Origin: Paremcibacter congregatus
GTDB taxonomy: Bacteria > Pseudomonadota > Alphaproteobacteria > Sphingomonadales > Emcibacteraceae
Assembly (NCBI RefSeq): GCF_006385135.1
Contig: NZ_CP041025.1
Coordinates: 3,317,501 to 3,381,500, forward strand
Length of the DNA: 64,000 nucleotides
Direction of reading: 5' to 3'
The notes beneath the pieces were generated by a model, which was given only the letters and a program-made list of their open reading frames with translations, did not search any database and was not told the DNA's origin. This document shows positions 4,936-17,936 of this stretch, piece after piece. The translations under genes were made by a program, and so were the position numbers. How positions within the stretch are numbered: the stretch's first letter is position 1; every line of letters starts with the position of its first letter.

Positions 4936-5391
4936 TTAGTCGGCGTGTCTGACCTGGACCGTTTTGCGGATCTGGCCACTTCTCAGGTCAGAAATATACA
5001 GAAGACCCGCCACCCGGCGCATCAGATTGCTTTCATAGGCATCTTCCTTGCCGTCGGCAAAGACCACTTCCCACATCAATTCCAGAATATTTTCGCGTCC
5101 GGCGTCATCGAAATGATCCTTGATCCGGCGGGTAAAGCCGAGAATATGGTTGGCCTCACTCTGGGCCGCCAAAGCCTCGACAAACAGCTCCAGCGCCTCT
5201 TCCTGGCTCAATCCCAATCGGTGTTCCAGCAAATGTAGGATGCGCTCCCTCTCGACCCGTGAAACCTCCCCGTCATGGGCCGCCACTTCAACCATCAGGG
5301 CCGCCGCTGCCAGCTTCTCGCATTCCTTGTCCGGGGTCTCGCCCGCAGCAGGTCCCTGCAGCATGGCAGAGATCTTCTTTAAAATTGACAC
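4936..5391 (-). CDS. TerB family (tellurite resistance-like) protein
   Basis: 151-residue helical protein of the cytoplasmic TerB/DjlA-like fold (COG4103 type). The typical start is present (LAAAALMVEVAAHDGEVSRVERERI, residues about 28-51), with the acidic HDGE segment that in TerB binds divalent metal, and a second half with VFADGKED near 110-117 as the pseudo-repeat. The family was named for tellurite resistance, but most members are general stress proteins of unknown function. It begins 34 bases after the TetR gene on the same strand, so the two are probably co-transcribed. Confidence 0.8.
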   Translation of the reverse strand: MSILKKISAMLQGPAAGETPDKECEKLAAAALMVEVAAHDGEVSRVERERILHLLEHRLGLSQEEALELFVEALAAQSEANHILGFTRRIKDHFDDAGRENILELMWEVVFADGKEDAYESNLMRRVAGLLYISDLRSGQIRKTVQVRHAD

Positions 5392-5425
5392 GTATTATAC
5401 CCTTTAAATTTGATTTCTTGTTTAG

Positions 5426-6070
5426 TCAGGAGGAAATGACCAGAGACTGCGTGAAAAGTTTCGTCACCTGCTCCGCCATTTCTGTGCGCCCCCCCATATC
5501 CATTTTATGATCCGATTTCATATGTTCCATCAGGCTCTCGTTCATCAACAGCACCGAAAGTCCATGCACCACGGACCAGGCGCTCATCAGAGCCACCGCC
5601 GGATCAATCTTCCGGGCGTTGGGCAAGGCCAGACATTCCATCACTGTTGCCTGAAAACAGGAAAAAGTGTTGTCTGCCGTATTATGCAGTTCTTCATATT
5701 TATCGTCACATAATTCATATTCAAACATGACCTTGAAATGCGCCGGATACTTACCGGCGAACTGTACATACTGCAGGCCAATCTTCTCCAGCCGCGCCAA
5801 CGGATCTTTTTCTGTCTCAATCAGGCCGCGCATGCCTTCGCCAAGCTTTGCCATACCATCGGCCTTCAGAACCGCAATCAGGGCTTCTTTATCCTCGAAA
5901 TGGCGATAGGGCGCCGTTTGAGACACACCGGCCCTGCGCGCCAGCGCCCGGAGGCTCAGGTCATCCAAACTGCCTTCTTTAAGAATTTCCAGCGCAGACT
6001 CAATCAACGTCTCGCGTAAATTCCCATGATGATATGATTTTTTGCCCTTTGGGCAACACCATTTGTTCAA
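5426..6070 (-). CDS. TetR/AcrR family regulator with WHG-type C-terminal domain
   Basis: 214 residues. The N terminus has the family entry sequence SYHHGNLRETLIESAL and a helix-turn-helix at about residues 40-60 (LSLRALARRAGVSQTAPYRHF). The C-terminal part (QYVQFAGKYPAHFKVMF, then AWSVVHGLSVLLMNE) matches the WHG/TetR_C_13 ligand-binding domain. It is first in a probable two-gene unit with the TerB-like gene. A TTGAC-GGC-GTCAA palindrome 75 bases upstream is a plausible autoregulatory operator. The ligand is unknown. Confidence 0.9.
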   Translation of the reverse strand: MNKWCCPKGKKSYHHGNLRETLIESALEILKEGSLDDLSLRALARRAGVSQTAPYRHFEDKEALIAVLKADGMAKLGEGMRGLIETEKDPLARLEKIGLQYVQFAGKYPAHFKVMFEYELCDDKYEELHNTADNTFSCFQATVMECLALPNARKIDPAVALMSAWSVVHGLSVLLMNESLMEHMKSDHKMDMGGRTEMAEQVTKLFTQSLVISS

Positions 6071-6144
6071 AAGTAACTCCTACACACCCCAATCCGTTTT
6101 CCAAGCCTACCCATACCCTGGAAACACAATTATCGCCGTTCATG

Positions 6145-6157
6145 TTGACGGCGTCAA
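6145..6157. promoter_or_regulatory. Candidate TetR operator
   Basis: TTGAC-GGC-GTCAA is a perfect short palindrome, overlapped by a second inverted repeat (CGCCGT / ACGGCG). It lies in the gap upstream of the TetR gene start at 6070. Size and placement fit TetR self-repression; this is inference. Confidence 0.4.
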
Positions 6158-6247
6158 TATTATTTTATTTATCCATGAAATACAGATGTCATAGCATGAA
6201 AGCCTGACAATATAAAGGCGAATGCCGGAAAAACTCACCCATGAAAG

Positions 6248-6790
6248 TCATGGGGTCAGCAGCAACTCGCCCCCTTCAAACTTGAAGCTCGACAGGCGAC
6301 TGAGGAAATTCATCCCCAGCAGGGACACATCCAGCCGACCAGCCTGGGAAACTGATGCCGGGATGCTGGAAAATGGCATGCCTTCCAACGCCATCCGGTC
6401 CAGCAGAACAACCGCCATGTTGCTCTTGCCGTTGGCGGTCCGGAATACCCGGTCAAAGGACAGACCCGCAGGGTCCAGCCCCGCCGCAAGGGCATCTTCA
6501 TACCGCAACGAAACATGGCTTGCGCCGGTATCAACGACAAAATGCACCGGCGTACCGTTGACTTCCAATGTAATCCGGTAATGGCCGTCCCGTGAAACAG
6601 GAATGCGGATGGGCTGGGTGTTGTCGGCCATTCGTGTTGTGCCATACACCAGCTTGCCGGAGGCGCTCTCCATCTGCGCCCCATCCCGTTCCGCTACCGC
6701 GTCTGTGGTGTCCAAAATCTGCTCGCCAAAATAGGCCACCACCGCGGCAACACAGAGAGCAAACAAAAGAATCATCGACGGACTGTTCAT
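6248..6790 (-). CDS. Membrane-anchored retropepsin-like aspartic protease (TIGR02281 type)
   Basis: 180 residues. An N-terminal membrane segment (about 5-21) is followed by a linker and a single retropepsin lobe with the catalytic motif VVDTGASHVSL (Asp87). Further hallmarks are NGTPVHF before it, the FRTANGKSNMAVVLLD flap region, and a C-terminal LLGMNFLSRLSSFKFEGGELLL, the conserved G-MNFL segment of clan AA single-lobe proteases. The active form must be a dimer. The single N-terminal segment suggests the protease lobe faces the periplasm. Substrates are unknown. It stands alone, with about 110 bases to the next gene. Confidence 0.9.
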   Translation of the reverse strand: MNSPSMILLFALCVAAVVAYFGEQILDTTDAVAERDGAQMESASGKLVYGTTRMADNTQPIRIPVSRDGHYRITLEVNGTPVHFVVDTGASHVSLRYEDALAAGLDPAGLSFDRVFRTANGKSNMAVVLLDRMALEGMPFSSIPASVSQAGRLDVSLLGMNFLSRLSSFKFEGGELLLTP

Positions 6791-6899
6791 GAGAGCGACC
6801 TACCTTCATCTTGAAAAACCGGATCAGGGTAGCGGCAATCATTTAAAATCAGCTTAAAGAATAGATATAATATGATCCATTCTTCAGCCGGCGGGCGGC

Positions 6900-8189
6900 T
6901 TATTCCCGCCGGAAAACTTTACCGGATTTCATGACAAAAACCACTTTTTCGATATTCTCGATCTGGGTCAGCGGATTGCCGTCAAGCGCGATGATATCGG
7001 CATATTTTCCCTGTTCCAGCGTTCCCAGCTCATCGCTCCTGCCCAGAAGATCGGCGCCATTCACGGTCGCCATCTTCAATGCCTGCGCCGCCGGAATGCC
7101 CAAGGCCACGAAACGCTCGATCTCGCGATAGTTCTTGCCGTGCGGCACGACACCTGCATCACTGCCGGTCGCGATCTGCACGCCCATTTTATAAGCCCGC
7201 AATATGGTGTCAGGATGTTGGGCAAGGAAGGCGTCATTATGGGCCAGCATCTTTCCCTCGACCTTGCCGTCAGCCTTTAGTTTTTCCAGCATGTCATGTA
7301 CGGAAACCGTCGGGACAAAATAGGTGCCCTGCTTTTTCATGGCGCGCAAGGCCTTGTCATCCATAAAAGAACCATGCTCAATCGAGGACACCCCGTATTT
7401 CAGCACGAACAGGGCGCTGTTACGGGGGTGACTGTGCGCCGCGACCTTGACGCCGTATTTGGCCGCCACCTGGGTCACCGCTTCAATCTCGTCAGCAAAG
7501 AACACCGGGGCTCCGTTTTCATTGGAACACAGCTGGCTACCGCTGCAGGAAGAATATATTTTGATCCAGTCCGCTCCGGCTTTGATCAGGTCGCGGGTCG
7601 TGCGGCGACAGCTTTCCGGGCCATTGCACTCCAGTCCCCCGTCTTTGCTCCCAACCCCGATGATCTGCCCGGCGGCGAAAATACGCGGCCCATCAATCTC
7701 GCCGGCCTGCACTTTTTTGCGCAGTTTAAAAATCGTATTTCCCCAGGCGCCAATATCCCGCACGGTCGTATAGCCGGCCATCAGGGTTTTTCGGGCATTG
7801 ACCACCCCAACGAGCGCCATGTCATCAGCCTTGCTATCATGGTCCTTGGTCATGGTCAGGTGAACATGTAAATCCATCAGACCCGGCATGACAAATTTGT
7901 CTTTCAGGTCGATGAGCCGGGCATCCGGAAAATCAAGATCTTCAGGAGTCTGGTACCCGGCATGAACGGCCTTGATCTTATCGCCTTCCACCACAATGGT
8001 TTGCTGCGTCAGCGGGGCTTGCCCCGGCACCGCCAACAGCTCTCCCACTTGCAATAGCAAGATCGGCTTGCTGTCGTCCGCCTGTTCAGATTTTTGTTCT
8101 TTTTTCGTGTCGTCAGACGCGCCATAAGACAGCGGGGCTGACAAAACAAGCCCCATCAGAATCACCAAAATAGCCGATAAATGTCTCAT
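6900..8189 (-). CDS. Secreted amidohydrolase family protein (imidazolonepropionase / prolidase-like)
   Basis: 429 residues from the ATG at 8189, chosen because GGGAGAGAAG precedes it and a signal peptide (LSAILVILMGLVLSAPLSYGA) starts there; a longer frame adds 14 unlikely residues. It is a metal-dependent hydrolase of the COG1228 group. Likely ligands are HVH at 108-110, Lys210 (DWIKIYSS, the carbamylated Lys position), His252/His254 (AAHSHP), His272 (IEHG) and Asp344 (TGSDAG). It is periplasmic and probably acts on Xaa-Pro-like dipeptides or other amides; specificity cannot be read from sequence. It has a short acidic/Lys-rich linker (about 24-41) after the signal. Monocistronic. Confidence 0.9.
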   Translation of the reverse strand: MRHLSAILVILMGLVLSAPLSYGASDDTKKEQKSEQADDSKPILLLQVGELLAVPGQAPLTQQTIVVEGDKIKAVHAGYQTPEDLDFPDARLIDLKDKFVMPGLMDLHVHLTMTKDHDSKADDMALVGVVNARKTLMAGYTTVRDIGAWGNTIFKLRKKVQAGEIDGPRIFAAGQIIGVGSKDGGLECNGPESCRRTTRDLIKAGADWIKIYSSCSGSQLCSNENGAPVFFADEIEAVTQVAAKYGVKVAAHSHPRNSALFVLKYGVSSIEHGSFMDDKALRAMKKQGTYFVPTVSVHDMLEKLKADGKVEGKMLAHNDAFLAQHPDTILRAYKMGVQIATGSDAGVVPHGKNYREIERFVALGIPAAQALKMATVNGADLLGRSDELGTLEQGKYADIIALDGNPLTQIENIEKVVFVMKSGKVFRRE

Positions 8190-8288
8190 ACTTCTCTCCC
8201 AGATACATATCATTTTGCCGCAGCATGGCACAGGAGAACAAAAATAGGAATAAAATTCAGTTCCTAAATCATGACTTATTCTAATAGG

Positions 8289-8690
8289 TTAATCAGGAAA
8301 AATATTACGCAGGCGGTCCGTGGCGCGGCGTTCGGACTTTGTCGGGCGCCCCGCGCCCCTGTTGCGCGGCGCCACTTGCGCCTTGCGGTTGGCCGCGGTG
8401 ACTTCTGGCGCCGGAGTCCGGTCCTCATACAGGGCCTGGGCCTCGGGCGCCGGGCCGCGGCGCTGACTTAACGCCAGCACCTTGACGATGCGAATGGTCT
8501 TTGCCTGGGGAAAGGTCAGCACATCGCCGACCGTCACCGCCGTTTTGGCTTTGGTGAATTTTTCCCCGTTCAGCCGTACCTTACCCGCCCGGCAAACCTT
8601 GGTTGACAAGGACCGGGTTTTAAAAAAACGCGCATGCCAGAGCCAGATATCAATCCGTTGCGAGAGCTCTTCCGGCTGCGGCTGCGCCAT
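8289..8690 (-). CDS. S4-domain RNA-binding protein, Hsp15 family
   Basis: 133 residues. The S4 domain occupies about residues 10-70, with RIDIWLWHARFFKTRSLSTK and CRAGKVRLNG as the classic S4 signature. A basic, disordered tail rich in Arg, Ala and Pro follows. Relatives such as Hsp15 bind free 50S subunits carrying nascent chains after heat shock. It lies just 3 bases downstream of the helicase stop on the same strand, a pairing that fits shared RNA metabolism and probable translational coupling. Confidence 0.9.
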   Translation of the reverse strand: MAQPQPEELSQRIDIWLWHARFFKTRSLSTKVCRAGKVRLNGEKFTKAKTAVTVGDVLTFPQAKTIRIVKVLALSQRRGPAPEAQALYEDRTPAPEVTAANRKAQVAPRNRGAGRPTKSERRATDRLRNIFPD

Positions 8691-8693
8691 GGT

Positions 8694-11600
8694 TTATTTC
8701 TTTGTTTTCAGCTGATCTTTCAGACCAGCCAGAGCGGCAAAGGGACTATGCGGATCAATCGGCGCGGCTTTGCGTTGCGGTTTGCGCCCGGCCATTCCTG
8801 GCTTGCCATGTGACTTGCCGTTTGGCTTGCCCGCCCCCGGTTTCCCCTGTGGCTTGCCCCGATGCGGGGCGCCCGTGGTTTTCGGTTTTGGCTTACCCTG
8901 AAACGATTTCCGAGGCCCCCGGTTCTGGGTGGCCTGATAAGGCTGATGGCTGAACAGGAAAATCTTTTCCGGGCCCGCCTTCTCTTCTGCCTTCTCTTCC
9001 TGCTTGGCATCCGCCGGCGTTGCCGCTGCCGTGTCCACCGGATTGGTCGGCAGTTCCTGCGGGGTTTCCACCGGTACTTCTGCCGGGGCTTCAACAGGCG
9101 CTTCGACCGGGGCTTCCTGCGGAGCTTCCACCGGTGTCTCCTGTGGCGTTTCCGTCGGAATTTCAGTCGGGATTTCAGTTGGCTTCTGATCCGGCTCTGC
9201 GGTCTTTTCTGTTGGCTGAGTTTCCTCTGTCACCGTTTCCTTGGCCGCAACGTCCTGATTTTCCGCAGCCTGTTTGGCTGCAGCTTCCTGATCTTCCGCA
9301 GCCTGTTTGGCTGCAGCTTCCTGATCTTCCGCAGCCTGTTTGGCTGCAGTTTCCTGATCTTCCCCAGCCTGTTTGGCTGCAGTTTCCTGATCTTCCGCAG
9401 CCTGTTTGGCTGCTCGGGCTTCAGCAATCTTCGCCGCCTCATCCGGCGCATATTCCTTATGGACATAACCCAGATAAGCCATGATCTCGGTGAAATCATC
9501 GCCGCTGGTGCCCACCAGGCTCATCAGATCGGGGTCGGCCGGAAATGGCCCTTTCAGCGACACTTCACGGGCGGCGTTGGCCAGCCGTTCCAGCATATCA
9601 AGACGCACGGCGTTCTTGCCCACCACCCGGTAACCGGACATTTCATAGAAGGTGCGCGGGGCTTTGGGATCAATCGGAATGGTGCAGAGTCCCGCCACCG
9701 GCACGTCCGGCAGCTGATCCATATCATTGAACAGGGCCCAGAGGAACAGGCGCAGCTGCGCCGGGGCCGGTTTCAAAAGGCTCGGGATGTAAAGACTGGC
9801 GGAGCCGAGCCAGATGCCGAGCTGTTTCATCTGGAAACGGCCTTCGCGGTCGACATCGCGGAAATCGCGGGCGATCATGCGGCGGGGGATGGTGCCAAGT
9901 TTTTCCAGCATCTGAAAAGCGATACCCCGGGCCATGCCGGTAATGATTTCCTTGCCGGCCCCGTCCTTGGCGCCGTTCACGGCTTCCTGCATCGCAAATA
10001 ATGGCGCGAGAATTTCACCCACATGATTGGCGAGCCAGCGGTCGACGCGGGCCTGAACCAACGCCTGGGAGTCGCCTTGCAAAACCGGAGTTGGATTGAC
10101 AATGGCTTTCGGGGCGAGCGCGGTTGGTCCCTTTTCCACCCGGGCAATGGCCACACCACGCCAGTTGATGGTCGAGCGGGTCAGCGGATCGCCGAGGATC
10201 AGGCTTAGTTCGCCGTCTTCGGCCTGAGCCAGTTCTTCGGCTTTGTTTTTGATTTCCTCGGACAGCACCTTGTCGGCGGCGGCGCGCAAGATCTTGCTGT
10301 CTTCCCCAAAGGCGGATGCGTCTTCTTTAAATTGGAACCCTTCCAGGGTACCGATAAAATGGCCCTCTACGTATATACTGCCATCTGTATCAATATTAGC
10401 CATTAAACTTCCTTTTAGGCGTAATTCTCTCATAAGAACCGACATCCGTCGATCCACAAAACGATGTGTCAGGCTTTCATGTAGCGCATCTGATAGCCTG
10501 TCTTCAATATCTCTTGTCAATTCCTGCCAATATTTTGCATCATCGAACCAGATCGCACGGTGGGAAATATAAGTCCAGGTACGGATATGGGCGATGCGCG
10601 ACGACAGAGTATCCACATCCCCGTCCGTCCGGTCAAGCGGACTGATCTGACTGTTCAGCCAGTCCGGATCAAGCACCCCGTTATCCGCAGAAGTCTGCCG
10701 ATAAATCTCTGATAATATTCGGATATGTTCGTCATCCGAAGTGCGGCGAAAGTCCGGAATCTGACAAACTTCCCACAACCGTTTCAGGCTCGCCGGGCCG
10801 GCAGCCAGCGCGCGGATATCGGCCATTTCAACCATTTGACGCAAGGCGGCCAAATCAATATTTTCCAGCGTCCGGCTGAGACCTTTCCGCCCTGGCACGG
10901 CGTCAAGCGAGCGAATCAGCGCCGAAGCATGACTATAATCCAGCGTCGTATTGCGCCATTGCAGCACGGTCAGTGGTGCGAACTGATGATTTTCCACCGC
11001 ATAGACCATCGCATCATCAAGTCCCGCACTGTAAGCCCCGCTGTCGGCAAGGCAGCCGAAAGTACCGTTATTCATATGCCGCCCGGCGCGGCCGGCGATC
11101 TGGGCTACTTCCGACGGGGTAAGTTCCCGCATGCGCCGCCCGTCAAATTTCGCGGTACCGGCGAAACACACATGGTCAATATCCATATTGAGCCCCATGC
11201 CGATGGCGTCCGTCGCCACCCCCAATGGTTCGTTCGTGTCTGGGTCACCGATATTGAGCCCCATGCCGATGGCGTCCGTCGCCACCAGATAATCCACATC
11301 GCCGTTCTGGTAAAGCTCGACCTGCTTGTTGCGGGTGCGGGGACTGAGAGAGCCCATCACCACCGCGACGCCGCCCTTCTGCCGCCGGAGCATCTCGGCA
11401 TAGCCATAAACATTATGGGCCGAGAAGGTCACCAGCGCCGTGCGCCGGTGCAGGCGGCTGAGTTTTTTTGGATCGGTGTAAATCAGTTCGGAAAAGCGCG
11501 GCCGTGTACTGAATTCCACATCGGGGACAAAACGCCGGATCAGGGAGGCGATGGTCTCGGACCCGAGAAACATGGTTTCCTGCCGCCCGCGCGCCCGGAT

Positions 11601-12115: not shown

Positions 12116-12129
12116 ATTGAATATTCAAT
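12116..12129. promoter_or_regulatory. Perfect palindrome upstream of the nitroreductase gene
   Basis: ATTGAATATTCAAT is a perfect 14-base palindrome, 24 bases before the nitroreductase start and 129 bases before the helicase start on the other strand. It may be an operator; no binding protein can be named. Confidence 0.3.
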
Positions 12130-12152
12130 CATATTAAGGAAAGACCCGCTTG

Positions 12153-12866
12153 ATGACCGACCGCAAAAACGCCCCCTCCACAATGCCCCAGGGTGAAGAG
12201 TATCAAGCGCTGCCCCTGCCGCATCGCTGGACCCTGACCAACACGGAAATGGCCGAACGCGCCACGGACTTCCTGGACCTGATGAAAAAACGCCACACCA
12301 TCCGCGACTTTACGGATCGGCCTGTGCCGCGCCAGATTATTGAGGATTGCCTGCTCACCGCCGGGCTCGCCCCCAGCGGCGCCAATCATCAACCCTGGCA
12401 TTTCGCGGTGATTGAGAACCCTGACGCCAAGAGGCAGATCCGCGCGGCGGCGGAGGAAGAAGAACGCACCTTCTATGCCGGACGCGCCGGGGATGAATGG
12501 CTGTCGGCGCTGGAACCCATCGGCACCAACGATCAGAAGCCTTTTCTTGAAATCGCCCCCTATCTGATCGTGATTTTCGCCCAGCGCTACGGCGTCACGC
12601 CGTCGGGGGAGAAATTTAAACATTATTATGTGCCGGAATCCGTCGGCATCGCCACCGGCATGCTGATCACGGCATTGCATAACGCGGGGCTCTCGACCCT
12701 GACCCACACGCCGAACCCGATGAAGTTTCTCAATAAATTGTGCGGCAGACCAGATGCGGAGAAACCTGAAATGATTTTGGTGGTTGGCCACCCGGCGGAA
12801 AACGCCACCGTGCCCAAACATGCCAAATGGAAGAAGTCCCTGGAAGAAATCGCGACGTTTATTTAG
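12153..12866 (+). CDS. Nitroreductase family protein (iodotyrosine deiodinase-like)
   Basis: 237 residues from the ATG at 12153, which has AAGGAAAG upstream; a TTG one codon earlier is less likely. FMN-dependent NAD(P)H oxidoreductase. [20 protein letters not shown] is the FMN-binding RRSxRxF-like start, followed by [18 protein letters not shown], the canonical PSGxNxQPW segment. [26 protein letters not shown] and the terminal [11 protein letters not shown] follow. The length and N-terminal extension resemble the iodotyrosine deiodinase/BluB branch rather than NfsB. Substrate unknown. Divergent from the helicase, monocistronic. Confidence 0.9.
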
Positions 12867-12895
12867 CCGCGTCAGTGGTCCGGGCCGGACACAAA

Positions 12896-13732
12896 TTACA
12901 ATATTTTATATGTTGTGATCCGGCCCCGCCAATATGCGGCATAACCCGTATCATAAATATACCCTACTTCTCCGCAGGTCGGAATGCGCCGACCATCCCT
13001 GATCTCATAAGCGGAAAAACGCCCGATCCAGGGACGCGCTGTTGCTCCCTCTACCGCCCCGCCCCGGGCATCTGCCTGAATCTCGCAAATATCACCGGCC
13101 TCATTGAAATATAACCGTACAGATACCGGCGTTCCCCGACTGTCAGCACTGACTTCCACTGTGCGTTCGTCAAGCCTGCGCCAGCCCAGCGCTTTATTAT
13201 GCAATACCGCATCTGGTGCCCATGCCAATTCCGCCAAATAACGCATTAATTCATCCCTGTCCGCCTCCCCCTGAGACAGGTCTGCCACCGGAATTGACCC
13301 AAACAGGCGCGCCTTCAGAACCCCGGCCCCGTTCAGGTAAGCGTCCATAATCCGGATTATGGTCATCGGCCCCAGAACCTGTCGCGCATCCCAGACAAAT
13401 CCAGGCTGAAAAACCGCGATGCTCTGCCGCGCCCTGACCCGACGCCAGGGTTTATCCGGCCCCATGCGCAATTCCGCATCCTGCTCTAAATATATCCCCC
13501 GAACAGGAATATCATCCGACGCTCCGGATTTCCGGGCGAATTGACGCACCAGCTCTGGAAGGTGAACCGATATTTCTTCTGATCCTGACATTACCCTGAC
13601 GTCGCCGTCAACTGCCGCCGTAACATCCTGCAAGGCCTGCGCGATCTCCTGATCAAAACGCATGCAGGCCCGGACATGCAGAAGCACGATCACCCCGGAC
13701 AAAATCAGAATACTCCCAAGAAAAAAAGCCAT
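12896..13732 (-). CDS. DUF6544/DUF6920-like membrane-anchored protein
   Basis: 278 residues: one N-terminal membrane segment (about 2-19), then a mostly beta periplasmic or cytosolic domain. The segment LKARLFGSIPVADLSQGEADRDEL followed by RYLAELAWAPDAVLHN is what I recall as the core of the DUF6544 family, with WRRLDERTVEVSADSRGTPVSV and IPTCGEVGY further on. No catalytic role is known. It is the last gene of an apparent operon with lemA and the DUF3137 gene (gaps of 17 and 20 bases). Confidence 0.6.
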   Translation of the reverse strand: MAFFLGSILILSGVIVLLHVRACMRFDQEIAQALQDVTAAVDGDVRVMSGSEEISVHLPELVRQFARKSGASDDIPVRGIYLEQDAELRMGPDKPWRRVRARQSIAVFQPGFVWDARQVLGPMTIIRIMDAYLNGAGVLKARLFGSIPVADLSQGEADRDELMRYLAELAWAPDAVLHNKALGWRRLDERTVEVSADSRGTPVSVRLYFNEAGDICEIQADARGGAVEGATARPWIGRFSAYEIRDGRRIPTCGEVGYIYDTGYAAYWRGRITTYKIL

Positions 13733-13752
13733 CCAATACCCCTCTTGCAGCT

Positions 13753-14745
13753 CTACACCCGACTGTCCATATCCAGTTTCAGCTTCTGAACGATATCATA
13801 GATCAGCGCCAGCTCCTGAATGGTTTGCTGGATATGCTTGGTATCCGCCAGATTGGCGAAGACCGAACCAGCTTCAAAGCTGTTTTTATCCTTCTTGATC
13901 GCCAGCAACAAATGGCCGCGATGAAACGCCAGTTGCAGGTTGCCGCGCCCCACCTGCCCCGACAACCGGCACAGCCGTTCCATAAAGGTCGGCGTCAGCA
14001 GGTAACGCGCCTCGACCTGATCGGTGGCATAGACCTCGAACAGGCTTTCGAAGGTGGGGTCTTCCAACGCCACCCGTTCGCCCTGCTTGCCCCATTGCCC
14101 GAAAAAATTACCAAACGCGCTATAGTCACGGGTGATGATCGTCGTGCCGGCGAAATTCTTGTGAAAATCAAATTCCGCCAACAGGCCGCGAAACACTGTC
14201 GACTTGCGCCGTCGGCCCTTGCTGTCGTGACTGATTTTAATCAGTTTGGCTTCGAACAGGTCAAACCCGACCTCATCGACGGCGCCGGTGATCTGGTCTT
14301 CGAGCTTGCTTTCATCATAGGAGGGGATCAGCGACAATTCCCGAAGTCGTGTCAAGGACACATTCAGCGGCTTTAATCGATAGGTCATGCCAAGATAATC
14401 ACACAGATGATGCATGACCACCATCTTGGTTCTGGTTTTCAGGGCCGCCAGGGGGCGATACCCCCAGTAGCCGATAAAGATGCAGCCAATCCCGACAAAA
14501 ATCACCATCTGCGGTTCCGTTGCCTGGGTCGCCAGAATAAAACCCGTCCCCAGAATGAACAACACCGCCGCAACCCCCGCCACCATAAAGAATCTTTTCA
14601 CGGCCTTGGGGCGATCGGCCTCAAGCTTTTCCAGAGCCGGTTTCAGAACAGTCTCGAAATGCCGGTCAAAGCCATCAAGCCCGGCCAGGGCGCCCTCAAG
14701 ACTTCCCGTAGAGATTTCGTCTGCCCTTTTACGATAATCCGACAT
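13753..14745 (-). CDS. DUF3137 family membrane protein
   Basis: 330 residues. Two adjacent membrane segments at about 52-70 and 78-95 (FFMVAGVAAVLFILGTGFIL, then MVIFVGIGCIFIGYWGY) separate an N-terminal cytoplasmic stretch from a long C-terminal domain. The latter holds DUF3137 features: FGQWGKQGERVALEDPTFE, FEVYATDQVEARYLLTP, and AFHRGHLLLAI near the end. Function is unknown. DUF3137 genes commonly sit beside lemA, as here with a 17-base gap, suggesting a joint membrane or envelope function. Confidence 0.85.
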   Translation of the reverse strand: MSDYRKRADEISTGSLEGALAGLDGFDRHFETVLKPALEKLEADRPKAVKRFFMVAGVAAVLFILGTGFILATQATEPQMVIFVGIGCIFIGYWGYRPLAALKTRTKMVVMHHLCDYLGMTYRLKPLNVSLTRLRELSLIPSYDESKLEDQITGAVDEVGFDLFEAKLIKISHDSKGRRRKSTVFRGLLAEFDFHKNFAGTTIITRDYSAFGNFFGQWGKQGERVALEDPTFESLFEVYATDQVEARYLLTPTFMERLCRLSGQVGRGNLQLAFHRGHLLLAIKKDKNSFEAGSVFANLADTKHIQQTIQELALIYDIVQKLKLDMDSRV

Positions 14746-14762
14746 CCGCCTTCTCCCTCATT

Positions 14763-15326
14763 TTACAGATAGTCCGCCGCGTCCACCGGTTTTTTCTCGA
14801 TCTCTTCCATTTCAAAATAGGGCATGGCGGTAATGTTGGCCATATTGGCGATAAGATTGCCCGGGAAGATTTCCACCGCATTATTGAGCGACGTCACCGC
14901 AGCATTATAAAAACGCCGCGCGGCAGAGATATGACCTTCGACTTCCTCAAAGGTTTCCTGGGCCCGGATCATATTCTCGTTGGCCTTCAGTTCCGGATAA
15001 TTTTCCGCCACCGCGAAAAACTGCATCATCGCCGATTGCAGGCCCTGTTCGGCTTCCAGATGGGCGCTGACGTCATCCGGGTTGGTTCGGTCATAACTAC
15101 GGTGCGCCAGATTGCGCATCTCCGTCACCTTGCTCAGAACCTCACGCTCATGATCCATGAATTTCTTGGCGATCTTTAAGATGTTCGGCAACAGGTCATG
15201 GCGCTTTTTTAACTGTACATCAATGGACGACAGCGCCTCCAGCGCCCGGTTTTTCTTGCCCACCAATGACACATACCAAAAATACATCAGCAGCAAAAGG
15301 CCGCCCAAAACTGCAAAAACAATCAT
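14763..15326 (-). CDS. lemA: LemA family protein
   Basis: 187 residues. An N-terminal membrane segment (VFAVLGGLLLLMYFWYVSLV) is followed by the LemA helical domain: RALEALSSIDVQLKKRHDLLPNILKI, then AVAENYPELKANENM and ARRFYNAAVTSLNNAVEIFPGN, all strongly conserved in the family. Its function is not established. First gene of the lemA-DUF3137-DUF6544-like operon. Confidence 0.95.
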   Translation of the reverse strand: MIVFAVLGGLLLLMYFWYVSLVGKKNRALEALSSIDVQLKKRHDLLPNILKIAKKFMDHEREVLSKVTEMRNLAHRSYDRTNPDDVSAHLEAEQGLQSAMMQFFAVAENYPELKANENMIRAQETFEEVEGHISAARRFYNAAVTSLNNAVEIFPGNLIANMANITAMPYFEMEEIEKKPVDAADYL

Positions 15327-15456
15327 ATCAATTCCCCTTTGGGTCTTTTTCTAAAACAGGACTGTGCCAAATATTCTTTGGCAATACAAACGGATAAGGC
15401 CGTCACGAATCCACCCGGAACCCGCAACGGCCTTAAAATACATCCCCCATCCCGGC

Positions 15457-16158
15457 TTACTTAAAGATATCGCCGAGCTTTTTCTTCACATCGCCAAGGG
15501 CATTATCGAGCATATCCTTGGTAATGATCTTGCCGAGACCTTTATTAATGGCGCTAAAGGTTGCTGTCGCCACTTCACCGGCTGTGGCGGCCTTGTCTTC
15601 GGTCCCGATATTTTTCAGATGGATATCCGGCAATGTCAACCCGGCCCCTTTCCCCGCCATCAGGTCGGACGCCAGCTTTACCTTGGTTCCGTTGATATAG
15701 ATATGATCAACAATAAATTTTGCCTGACTTTCCGATTCAGAGGATTTGACCCCCAGGCTTTCGGTATAGGCCTCAATATTTTTCTGAATTTTTGAAATAT
15801 TGTTGCCCTTGGTGCCGATTTCATAGATCAGGTCGGCGCCCTCGATACGGATTTCCTTGATACGGATGACATCTTTCAGCAGGGACCCCACATCAAGCTC
15901 CACGGAAACATCATCAACCTTGAAAGCATGAGGCGCCTTAAAGCCGGACGGGTTACCCACGGTTAAACCCGACAGACCGGCCTTGCCACCACGAATGGCC
16001 ACATTGACCTTGTCCAGGGTCACCGGCGCCCCCGTCGCCTTTGGGGCATATTCCAGAACCGCGTCCCGGATCAGGGTTTCCGATTGAGATGCGCCGTAAA
16101 CAACGACACCGATCACGATTACAATGAGGGCCACCAGGCCGATTAGAATTTTCTTCAT
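15457..16158 (-). CDS. AsmA-like / DUF748-like membrane-anchored protein
   Basis: 233 residues. One N-terminal membrane segment (ILIGLVALIVIVIGVVVYGA) is followed by an alternating beta-strand domain with LSGLTVGNPSGFKAPHAFKVD, VSVELDVGSL and RIKEIRIEGADLIYE, the repeated pattern of AsmA/DUF748 proteins. The C-terminal 35 residues are amphipathic, Lys-rich helices. Large AsmA proteins help phospholipid transport across the periplasm; this short version may be a fragment-sized relative. Monocistronic; 130 bases separate it from lemA. Confidence 0.7.
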   Translation of the reverse strand: MKKILIGLVALIVIVIGVVVYGASQSETLIRDAVLEYAPKATGAPVTLDKVNVAIRGGKAGLSGLTVGNPSGFKAPHAFKVDDVSVELDVGSLLKDVIRIKEIRIEGADLIYEIGTKGNNISKIQKNIEAYTESLGVKSSESESQAKFIVDHIYINGTKVKLASDLMAGKGAGLTLPDIHLKNIGTEDKAATAGEVATATFSAINKGLGKIITKDMLDNALGDVKKKLGDIFK

Positions 16159-16362
16159 AAGTTTGATCCCCTTGAGGTTTCACATTTTATTCCCCCGGAG
16201 TGTCCCCCATTCCGCGCCTGAATGCAACAGGCAGATCCCACATCACACAGAAAAAACGGCGTTACGGCCGCCGCGCCGCCCTGCCTGTGGGCCGCGTCCA
16301 TTTTTTCCTGAACCAGCGGATGCGCCCTGAATGATCACCGCCCGATATCCGGATCATTGCTT

Positions 16363-16773
16363 TTATTTCGCGCGTCCTGTCATTTTTTCCGCCGTGCGTA
16401 ATCCGCCAAGCCCGAGCAGCGCCAGCACCAGTTCCATCATGTGGTCGGTAACGATCACCGGCGGTTCCACCTGTAATCCCCAGACCACCACCGTCCAGAC
16501 GAACAGGGGGTGCAACAAAAAAGCCCACAAAAATCCAATGCCGCACACCCAGCCGATAAAGGGCCGCCAGCCGGCAACAAACAACGATCTGTGCCCGGCT
16601 TCGATCTTGTTGATTTCCGCCTGCAGCAGATGCGGCTTCTGGCGCAGTTTCGCCATCAGCAAAGCCGCCTGCGCCCGTTCTTCATCACTGGTGAACAGCT
16701 GATCGACCACTTTGCCCACCGCTGACACCGCATCCCCCGCCGCACTGCCGAACAGTTTGCCCAAAAATCCCAT
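16363..16773 (-). CDS. Holin of the 3-TM gene-transfer-agent type
   Basis: 136 residues from the ATG at 16773, which has GGGAG 8 bases upstream and lies directly after the peptidase stop; a 10-residue longer frame overlaps that gene. It matches the GTA_holin_3TM pattern: MGFLGKLFGSAAGDAVSAV at the start, then SDEERAQAALLMAKL and INKIEAGHRSLFVAGWRPFI (about 53-73), with membrane segments around 72-90, 90-107 and 112-126. Holins permeabilise the inner membrane so an endolysin can reach peptidoglycan. It is the last gene of a three-gene cassette with an M15 peptidase. No phage structural genes are near. Confidence 0.88.
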   Translation of the reverse strand: MGFLGKLFGSAAGDAVSAVGKVVDQLFTSDEERAQAALLMAKLRQKPHLLQAEINKIEAGHRSLFVAGWRPFIGWVCGIGFLWAFLLHPLFVWTVVVWGLQVEPPVIVTDHMMELVLALLGLGGLRTAEKMTGRAK

Positions 16774-16774
16774 G

Positions 16775-17224
16775 TTAAAACTCCCTATAGCTGCGTCCGT
16801 CAAAAATCAGGCTCATCTGACGATTATTCCCCTGCCGGTAAGAGCAATGCACCCATCCGCTGTCAGGCACGTCAGGATTGTGAAATTCCAGAATCAACTG
16901 GTCAAAGATAAGAGTGTCCCGGATCCAGCCCGCCAGATCCCGGTTGGCAATCCCGGGCAACTCGAAATCCACCGCCTCACCACGAATATGCTGAGAAGCC
17001 GGCGACGATTTCACCAATGCATTCAACGCCGGGCAACGATAACCGCTGGACGGCGTGAAAGGCCGTTCGAACCGGGTCCGCACCGGTTCCAGAATATGCG
17101 TCGCCAGCCTGGCCAGCCGCGCAACTTCCCGGGGTCCGGGACGATTGTCCATCCCATGCCGTCGGGCCAGAGGACTATGGATCAGCTCCCGCAGGGTGAA
17201 ATGCGGTGATAAAATCCTATTCAT
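16775..17224 (-). CDS. M15-family peptidoglycan peptidase (D-Ala-D-Ala carboxypeptidase-like, phage endolysin type)
   Basis: 149 residues from the ATG at 17224 (MNRILSPHFTLREL), which overlaps the end of the upstream gene; the longer frame reads into that gene. Zinc peptidase of the M15_3 fold: SSGYRCPALNALV at 59-71, SQHIRGEAVDFEL with ligands His79 and Asp86, and GWVHCSYR with ligand His126. All three ligands are present, so it should be active. It has no signal peptide, as expected for an endolysin released through the holin encoded just downstream. Second gene of the putative lysis cassette. Confidence 0.9.
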   Translation of the reverse strand: MNRILSPHFTLRELIHSPLARRHGMDNRPGPREVARLARLATHILEPVRTRFERPFTPSSGYRCPALNALVKSSPASQHIRGEAVDFELPGIANRDLAGWIRDTLIFDQLILEFHNPDVPDSGWVHCSYRQGNNRQMSLIFDGRSYREF

Positions 17225-17819
17225 GCCTATTGACTCGGCCATAAGTCGCCCCGTACAGATTAAGCCCCGCCTGCAGATGGGATTTCGCCCAGCCCTTGCG
17301 CCGGGCCCATTTGCGGTCCACGGCACTAAACGACAGCTCGTCCAGGATGATGTCAAGGATCGGCCCCACCGGCAGCCGGTCCGCCGTCATCCGGTCCACC
17401 CAATCGCTATAGGATTCTTTCAGTTGAATTTCATGATCCCGTTCCCCCGTATCGGCACAGCGGCTGGTCTGCACCACCACGTCGGCCAGGCGGGAAATCC
17501 GCACCTGGGTACCTGCGGTAATCATCTGTAACGCCCGCCGCAAACATCGAAAAGCCCATAACTGCCTGTCGTTGAGGATGTTCCTGCGTTCCATGACCAG
17601 AAGCGGGTCAGGCGTCAACTTGGCCCGTGTTTCAGGTGTCGGCCCCACTGATCCCGGCTCTGCCGGTCCCTGCCCGGGTCGCACGGGCCTTAACGCCTTA
17701 TCCCGCCTGTTCTGCAGGCGCCCCAGACGACGGGCCTTGCGGATTTTACGGAACGACTGGCCTGCGCGACCCGGCGGGGGGCAGGAGTGATCACACATGA
17801 TTTTCATCTCTGTCGTCAT
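17217..17819 (-). CDS. Unknown protein, first gene of the lysis cassette (remote DUF6456-like C terminus)
   Basis: 200 residues, not confidently recognised. The first 75 residues are basic and low-complexity (many Arg, Pro, Gly). The rest is helical: RNILNDRQLWAFRCLRRAL, then SYSDWVDRMTADRL and KWARRKGWAKSHLQAGLNLYG near the end. The final layout vaguely resembles DUF6456, a small family seen near HTH regulators. It could be a DNA-binding regulator or phage-derived factor. It is the first gene after the LexA-box promoter, and its stop overlaps the M15 start by 8 bases, so translation is probably coupled. AGGAAAA precedes its ATG. Confidence 0.65.
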   Translation of the reverse strand: MTTEMKIMCDHSCPPPGRAGQSFRKIRKARRLGRLQNRRDKALRPVRPGQGPAEPGSVGPTPETRAKLTPDPLLVMERRNILNDRQLWAFRCLRRALQMITAGTQVRISRLADVVVQTSRCADTGERDHEIQLKESYSDWVDRMTADRLPVGPILDIILDELSFSAVDRKWARRKGWAKSHLQAGLNLYGATYGRVNRHE

Positions 17820-17904
17820 CTTGTTTTCCTGTTCAGTGTTGCGGGCGCGTTAATCTGGAAACACTGCGACCCCGGTGGTGCATTCAACGCGACTCAATGG
17901 TCCT

Positions 17905-17932
17905 ATTATAGGATAAAATAAGAACATATCAA
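17905..17932 (-). promoter_or_regulatory. Sigma-70 type promoter of the lysis cassette
   Basis: On the minus strand TTGATA (17927-17932) and TATAAT (17905-17910, perfect consensus) are 16 bases apart, about 86 bases before the first cassette gene. The -35 lies entirely inside the LexA-like box at 17922-17936. Confidence 0.75.
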
Positions 17933-17936
17933 GAAC
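17922..17936 (-). promoter_or_regulatory. LexA (SOS) box, GTTC-N7-GTTC
   Basis: Minus strand GTTC-TTGATAT-GTTC, an exact match to the alphaproteobacterial LexA consensus. It overlaps the -35 of the cassette promoter, the ideal position for repression by LexA and release on DNA damage. Confidence 0.75.

Follow-up and report, generated by a model that had tools for sequence, protein, structure and literature searches.

The locus analysed here lies in a window of 64,000 nucleotides of the Paremcibacter congregatus chromosome and consists of three minus-strand genes preceded by a common promoter (Table 1). They encode g1, an M15 endolysin and a holin of the gene transfer agent (GTA) type. The last 8 nt of g1 are shared with the start of the endolysin gene and only one base separates the endolysin stop from the holin ATG, so that a single transcript is likely. 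The endolysin start was revised to ATG 17224, and for the holin ATG 16773 was preferred to a longer frame beginning with TTG. Judged by profile comparison, the family calls of both lysis proteins are firm. Indeed, the endolysin frame read from 17218 matches Peptidase_M15_3 (PF08291; E 1.5e-15; 57.6 bits for a curated cut-off of 23.2) and a PHROG endolysin (E 9e-36), and the holin matches GTA_holin_3TM (PF11351; E 1.3e-17; 64.9 bits for a curated cut-off of 24.8) and a PHROG holin (E 5e-31), making each a member of its family. The zinc-ligand motifs SQHxxGxAxD and WxHCS are present in 16/16 aligned endolysin sequences. Five of the neighbouring genes belong to housekeeping families, namely AsmA, LemA, DUF3137, AI-2E transporter and ion channel. 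A family-profile scan of the six flanking genes found no phage family, and the same flanks occur in relatives. No capsid, terminase or integrase gene stands beside the lysis genes, which excludes an intact prophage at the cassette. The initial annotation had described three coupled genes, an M15 endolysin with its zinc ligands, a GTA-type 3-TM holin, a TTGATA/TATAAT promoter with its -35 inside a LexA-type box and surroundings free of phage genes; all of these features were recovered, with two corrected start codons.

Table 1. Features of the lysis cassette and its promoter, numbered from the first nucleotide of the window.
Feature	Position	Strand	Description
g1	17217..17819 (17819-17217)	minus	200 aa; basic N-terminus and C-terminal sigma-region-4/Q21-like domain; putative remote DUF6456 (GafA/GafZ) relative
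M15 endolysin	16775..17224	minus	149 aa from ATG 17224
3-TM holin, GTA type (PF11351)	16363..16773	minus	136 aa
Terminator-like hairpin and T run	16256..16274	minus	3' of the holin gene; pattern match only
Promoter TTGATA-16-TATAAT	17905..17932	minus	11/12 consensus bases
LexA-type box GTTCTTGATATGTTC	17922..17936	minus	covers the -35
Second LexA-like site GTTCTTATTTTATCC	17911..17925	minus	overlaps the box; top matrix score in the window
Palindrome CCTATAATAGG	17902..17912	minus	around the cassette -10; also at the GTA structural promoter

The endolysin was found in 59 of the 147 genomes of the order. The cassette is present in 18 of the 32 family genomes: 15/16 of the genus, P. congregatus included, as well as G391, G397 and G431. 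The endolysin is absent from the 13 genomes of the genus g280 and from G489, a genome that is 64% complete. The order g1-endolysin-holin is the same in all 18 cassette genomes, which represent four genera; in G455 the cassette is split over two contigs, and the holin of G446, located at a contig end, is in two fragments. The AI-2E gene is divergent and upstream of the cassette in 17 of them and is located elsewhere in G397. Values of dN/dS are 0.05-0.17 (g1), 0.12-0.26 (endolysin) and 0.08-0.46 (holin), most pairs falling within 0.05-0.26 and the 0.46 coming from a single holin pair. These tests used 15/17 g1, 16/17 endolysin and 15/17 holin sequences, those with N or an in-frame stop being dropped; the same rule retained 9/12 capsid, 10/10 portal and 7/8 781-aa protein sequences in the selection tests of the GTA genes described below. 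The cassette is under purifying selection, in agreement with its earlier description as a host-kept module. All three genes are of phage type, the lysis pair directly and g1 via its relatives, and could be taken for a decaying, functionless prophage remnant, but this reading is contradicted by the selection and by the gene order kept across four genera, and we regard it as extremely improbable.

The cassette promoter is the best of 7 candidates in the window. The pattern GTTC-N7-GTTC, to which the LexA-type box conforms, occurs twice in the window for 1.74 occurrences expected and is therefore not rare by itself. Since the pattern is at chance level, we examined the LexA operators of the lineage itself. 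A weight matrix trained only on the lexA, recA and uvrA/ssb operators of the lineage, the cassette being excluded, was applied to 127,972 window positions and ranked the site 17911-17925 first and the box 17922-17936 third. The lexA, recA and ssb operators outscore the cassette sites, but it is these operators that trained the matrix. In 131,902 positions of eight other loci of the same genome, five sites score at least at the level of the box; some of these loci were chosen for holding such boxes and do not provide a neutral background.

The uvrA/ssb intergenic region of P. congregatus, with genes named by reading their translations, carries GTTCTTATTTTGTTC. The lexA promoters have GTTCTATTTTTATTC-like sites and the recA promoters GTACACATTTTGTTC-like sites, mostly with 7/8 key bases. 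Upstream of recA, the exact GTTC-N7-GTTC pattern is absent from all 19 loci with the recA motif (3 further loci are without the motif); of 22 lexA loci, only that of G391 has it. The idea that recA and lexA are without boxes was overturned by a scan of both strands allowing one mismatch, which found a conserved site in 19/19 recA promoters and in 16/16 located lexA promoters, three lexA loci not having been located. One mismatch over 8 bases is a lenient rule, and these controls lean on the conserved position as well. Most recA promoters (L091-L109) also contain an inverted pair TGTTCTT-N6-AAGAACA besides the GTAC-N7-GTTC site. Elsewhere in the P. congregatus genome, an exact GTTCTTGATTTGTTC box is found at L087 1501 (G000:C1:1320247-1320261), upstream of a gene reading as an RND transporter.

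Among the 18 cassette genomes, the box is exact in 9, has one mismatch in 1 (G440) and is missing from 8. Thus, of the conservation of gene order and box that the initial annotation had proposed to compare across relatives, the first holds throughout and the second in part. With the pattern at chance level in the window and the box missing from these eight genomes, it might be a fortuitous match in an AT-rich promoter, the operon being under another signal. This seems improbable: the exact box is found in all three outer genera, 9/18 genomes have it in an identical position across the -35, and the two cassette sites rank first and third by the matrix. Because of its overlap with the -35, its matrix rank and its retention in cassette genomes, the box is raised above chance. 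The box-less genomes are scattered within the genus, where tree support is low at several nodes (17-77). Repeated loss of the box across the tree is the simplest reading, and in box-less strains the operon would be run by another signal. We infer that LexA binds the box in P. congregatus and that the operon is induced by the SOS response.

The initial annotation had suggested seeking a GTA cluster elsewhere in the genome, and a GTA-like cluster was found on the same chromosome. This RcGTA-like head-tail cluster is situated at G000:C1:397072-413208, the cassette being at ~3.33 Mb. It comprises TerS, TerL, portal, S78 protease, capsid, connector, head- and tail-completion genes, tail tube, GTA-gp10, TAC, tape measure, a 781-aa protein and baseplate hub, followed, past one inverted gene, by an NlpC/P60 protein, a 752-aa protein with the C-terminal domain of RcGTA gp15, and DUF2793. 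The order from TerS to gp15 is present together with the GTA-specific domains GTA-gp10 (PF11836) and Rcc01698_C (PF23666). The 781-aa protein (L182 16045-18390) combines non-contractile tail sheath domains (PF23844 and PF23845, with a TIM barrel) with DUF2460. The GTA_TIM domain was found in 0/147 genomes searched, the Caulobacter control being positive, and because of this absence we call the cluster GTA-like. An absence of GTAs, at first deduced from the GTA_TIM result, was overturned by the capsid search that revealed the cluster, and an end of the cluster at the baseplate gene was likewise overturned by the gp14- and gp15-like genes past the inverted gene.

Capsid matches were obtained in 15 of 27 family genomes, including a single copy in P. 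congregatus, and in 0/9 genomes of g280. At least one flanking gene is kept beside the cluster in six relatives (L184, L186, L187, L188, L191 and L195), and its left neighbour is also beside it in G387, which belongs to another family; this check covered 12 loci and L220, several of which end inside the cluster. The cluster thus appears to have been kept vertically at one chromosomal place. Elsewhere in the P. congregatus genome, L275 (G000:C1:1836000-1855999) holds two inverted, nearly identical small prophage-like blocks at 5353-10760 and 12123-17587. Besides a PF11351 holin, they have genes that read as packaging-ATPase-, capsid- and cell-wall-hydrolase-like. These blocks explain the other two PF11351 matches of the genome.

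The distribution of the cassette follows that of the GTA terminase within the family: of the 18 genomes carrying the cassette, 15 have a TerL match, against 0 of the 14 lacking it (Fisher 1.5e-6, ancestry ignored). The three cassette genomes without a TerL match are G391, G455 and G484. G391, a complete genome with both cassette and box, has only a divergent capsid of 26% identity. In the order, TerL was matched in 115/147 genomes; the PF11351 holin and TerL occur together in 105, the holin alone in 14, TerL alone in 10 and neither in 18. Outside the family the co-occurrence is weaker (Fisher 0.0067, ancestry ignored). In G388, an M15 and PF11351 pair lies at the end of a GTA-like cluster. In its family, f178, a further 12 genomes (G394, G400, G405, G409, G426, G435, G441, G444, G450, G456, G459 and G482) have, by coordinates, TerL and the endolysin relative on one strand of the same contig, separated by 9-38 kb; in the other f178 genomes with both, the two are on different contigs. 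We read this linkage as probably ancestral or at least recurrent, the P. congregatus family being unlinked.

These data bear on the possibility that the cassette is an SOS lysis module serving the release of DNA, vesicles or bacteriocin-like particles and unrelated to GTAs. Such a role would agree with the LexA-type box, with the distance between cassette and GTA cluster and with the situation in G391; we nevertheless judge it rather improbable, in view of the terminase co-occurrence in the family, the G388 pair and the promoter element described below. The cassette can no longer be called an orphan, as it was initially, since it pairs with the GTA-like cluster. Among the release outlets then listed, the gene transfer agent is the sole one with evidence.

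The -10 of the cassette promoter lies within a palindrome, CCTAT-N-ATAGG, that is exact in 15/18 cassette genomes and one base off in the other 3, and is thus kept better than the LexA box. Part of this conservation is expected, because the -10 hexamer is inside the palindrome. At the GTA structural promoter the palindrome, with 1-2 central bases (CCTAT-N1-2-ATAGG), stands 9 bp before the -35 TTGACA in 5/8 clusters, and the half-palindrome ATAGG is found in 7/8, G431 having neither form. In the whole P. congregatus genome (4.19 Mb), CCTAT-N1-2-ATAGG occurs at 4 sites, two of which are the cassette and GTA promoters, versus 16 sites for the reversed control pattern. The other two, near dnaB and a TonB receptor, are attributed to chance, given that the additional sites of G475, G481 and G449 adjoin different genes (a judgement that leaves aside the loci of G486, G440, G416, G397, G431 and G391). 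Over ten cassette genomes, 14 of 44 palindrome sites, placed by coordinates, fall within the cassette or GTA promoter, and both promoters carry the palindrome in 5/10; of two g280 genomes, one has a single site and the other none. No LexA-like site was found within 400 bp at the GTA structural promoter. As judged from these promoter sequences, the palindrome is the strongest link between the cassette and the GTA cluster, though the -10 itself forms part of it.

The first gene of the cassette could provide the factor acting at this element. No match to g1 was found in Pfam, PHROG and NCBIfam up to E 1. In particular, the curated DUF6456 model (PF20057) does not match it, and g1 is therefore not counted as a DUF6456 member; nor did a family-profile scan of g1 alone find a GafY or DnaA-like N-terminal domain. 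A comparison of profiles gave a different picture: hhalign of a profile built from 26 g1 relatives against one from 16 DUF6456 proteins, two DUF6456 frames (L256, L264) being left out, yielded E 1.1e-5 over 133 columns. The scores of 43-44 compare with at most 19.8 in 60 shuffles and at most 23.4 among 12 control families. The match is carried by the prophage rows (E 9e-6), the rows of the P. congregatus family alone giving E 0.022, and it is weak when only two DUF6456 sequences are used (E 0.045). The structural models of g1 and DUF6456 have an identical run of six helices and a low-confidence loop, and their predicted C-termini resemble sigma region 4. In VIA-align, the DUF6456 list is led by MarR-type winged helices for the N-terminal part and by sigma region 4 for the C-terminal part (Z 6.5-6.9), Q21 not being listed. 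Foldseek gave no match at E <=0.001 for either protein. Taken together, the C-terminal domain of g1 is probably a remote homologue of DUF6456, the domain of the GafA/GafZ activators. Of the two roles initially proposed for this gene, regulator or lysis timer, the first is the one that its sequence suggests.

Family scans of the 26 g1 relatives returned weak, scattered matches only, including one PHROG Q-like match (1/26, E 0.19). Searches of viral contigs and phage records found no g1 match, and those of viral contigs no confirmed DUF6456. In a sample of the class, g1 homologues were detected in 13 of 384 other genomes. Among the 11 whose wider regions were read, terminase-like genes follow the g1 relative in 4 (L139, L141, L143 and L145; translations read, one Pfam-checked). 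A divergent HTH-S24 repressor adjoins it in two loci, L135 and L144, the latter with a broken g1 copy. In L141 and L143 (G168 and G342, of one genus), the g1 relative is followed at the same place by TerS-, TerL- and portal-like genes; the block adjoins a cysteine-synthase-like gene and could be another kept phage-derived cluster. DUF6456 itself lies ~3 kb or less upstream of the GTA TerL in 13/20 genomes of other families, the same position as that of g1 relatives near terminase, and was not found there in 4/5 genomes of f2 and 3/3 of f178. In G387, a divergent HTH gene is next to DUF6456. Among 25 genomes searched, DUF6456 exceeds the cut-off only in G387 and G393, and in 0/21 genomes of the P. 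congregatus family (12 with the cassette and 9 of g280).

In lambdoid phages, the gene of the regulator Q is next to the lysis genes. The phage 21 antiterminator Q21 is the top VIA-align match of the g1 C-terminal domain (Z 7.7 over 101-105 residues), a value that is not decisive since Z <8 can reflect a common arrangement; g1 thus resembles Q21 in its place beside lysis genes and differs from it in having no sequence-family match. Together with a palindrome on the -10 of its own promoter, this resemblance could mean that g1 regulates its own operon only, as an autorepressor or a Q21-type antiterminator, the GTA being switched on otherwise and the cassette ensuring release alone. We find this unlikely, as the same palindrome precedes the GTA -35 in most clusters, wholly or in half, and a search of 21 family genomes yielded no DUF6456 activator.

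We therefore favour, as the probable interpretation, that the operon serves the RcGTA-like GTA at 397072-413208 as an unlinked module for both control and release. In an undamaged cell, LexA bound over the -35 would keep the operon off, and DNA damage would free the promoter. The g1 protein would then be produced along with the endolysin and the holin. It, or a partner, would act at the common palindrome, activating the GTA structural promoter from a position immediately before the -35 and, in a feedback, covering the -10 of its own promoter. Finally, the holin would open the membrane for the endolysin and the particles would be released. The missing box in 8/18 genomes, G391 without TerL and the lack of a family match for g1 speak against this interpretation. 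So do the E of 0.022 given by the family's own g1 rows, the -10 hexamer inside the cassette palindrome, the GTA promoter free of LexA-like sites, the co-occurrence that ignores ancestry and weakens outside the family, and the absence of GTA_TIM. The most likely reading of the locus remains that this operon, which is under selection and has a LexA-type box, serves to control and release a GTA. The new parts are the assignment of g1 as a regulator and the common palindrome; how the module works is our inference. As to the origin of the module, we tentatively suggest a rewired GTA, a scenario somewhat short of even chances: the family would have lost the GafZ-type regulator that sister families have beside the structural cluster, and a phage-type Q21/GafZ-like activator within the lysis operon would have taken over the GTA promoter and lysis via the palindrome, host LexA replacing a prophage-type repressor.

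If this rewiring is true, DNA damage would directly trigger both production and release of the GTA, supplying repair templates to survivors. In the literature found, GTA control has been worked out in few species. The locus brings together a single operon, operator, candidate activator and common promoter element, so that whether DNA damage directly switches on the production and release of a GTA could be addressed with few deletions and one reporter. A candidate function is also provided for a protein that matches no family, and the locus points to a kinship between phage late-gene regulators and the sigma-like part of GafA. Literature searches on SOS boxes and holins, on Kordiimonadales, and on LexA binding sites, DNA damage and lysis, mostly outside subscription papers, found no paper; the consulted part of the one paper found on gene transfer agents and Emcibacter names Emcibacterales as outgroup (PMC10883770).

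The proposed module can be compared with three known GTA systems, as described in the consulted parts of the papers cited. In Rhodobacter capsulatus, the promoters of RcGTA and of the lysis cassette are both bound by GafA (PMC6363796), which matches the domain DUF6456, and LexA is reported to act through CckA (PMC9638019). Both systems would thus rely on an activator with a sigma-like domain whose targets are the GTA promoter and an endolysin/holin cassette that is unlinked (PMC6363796, PMC9638019). However, GafA is encoded outside the lysis operon and carries DUF6456, whereas here a LexA-type box precedes an operon that unites regulator and lysis genes, and no DUF6456 gene was detected in the family genomes searched. 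In Dinoroseobacter shibae, LexA sites are predicted at GTA genes (PMC6473078), making it a similarly LexA-linked GTA network; there the predicted site is at the structural cluster, whereas here it is at the activator-lysis operon. In Caulobacter, GafYZ and RogA control a GTA that helps cells to survive DNA damage (PMC9632790). GafYZ is a two-part GafA relative repressed by the LexA-like RogA, in place of which P. congregatus would use a LexA operator. Release of the Caulobacter GTA needs LypABC, and the part consulted reports no holin-endolysin homologue there (PMC13236601), in contrast to the endolysin/holin pair that would lyse the cell here.
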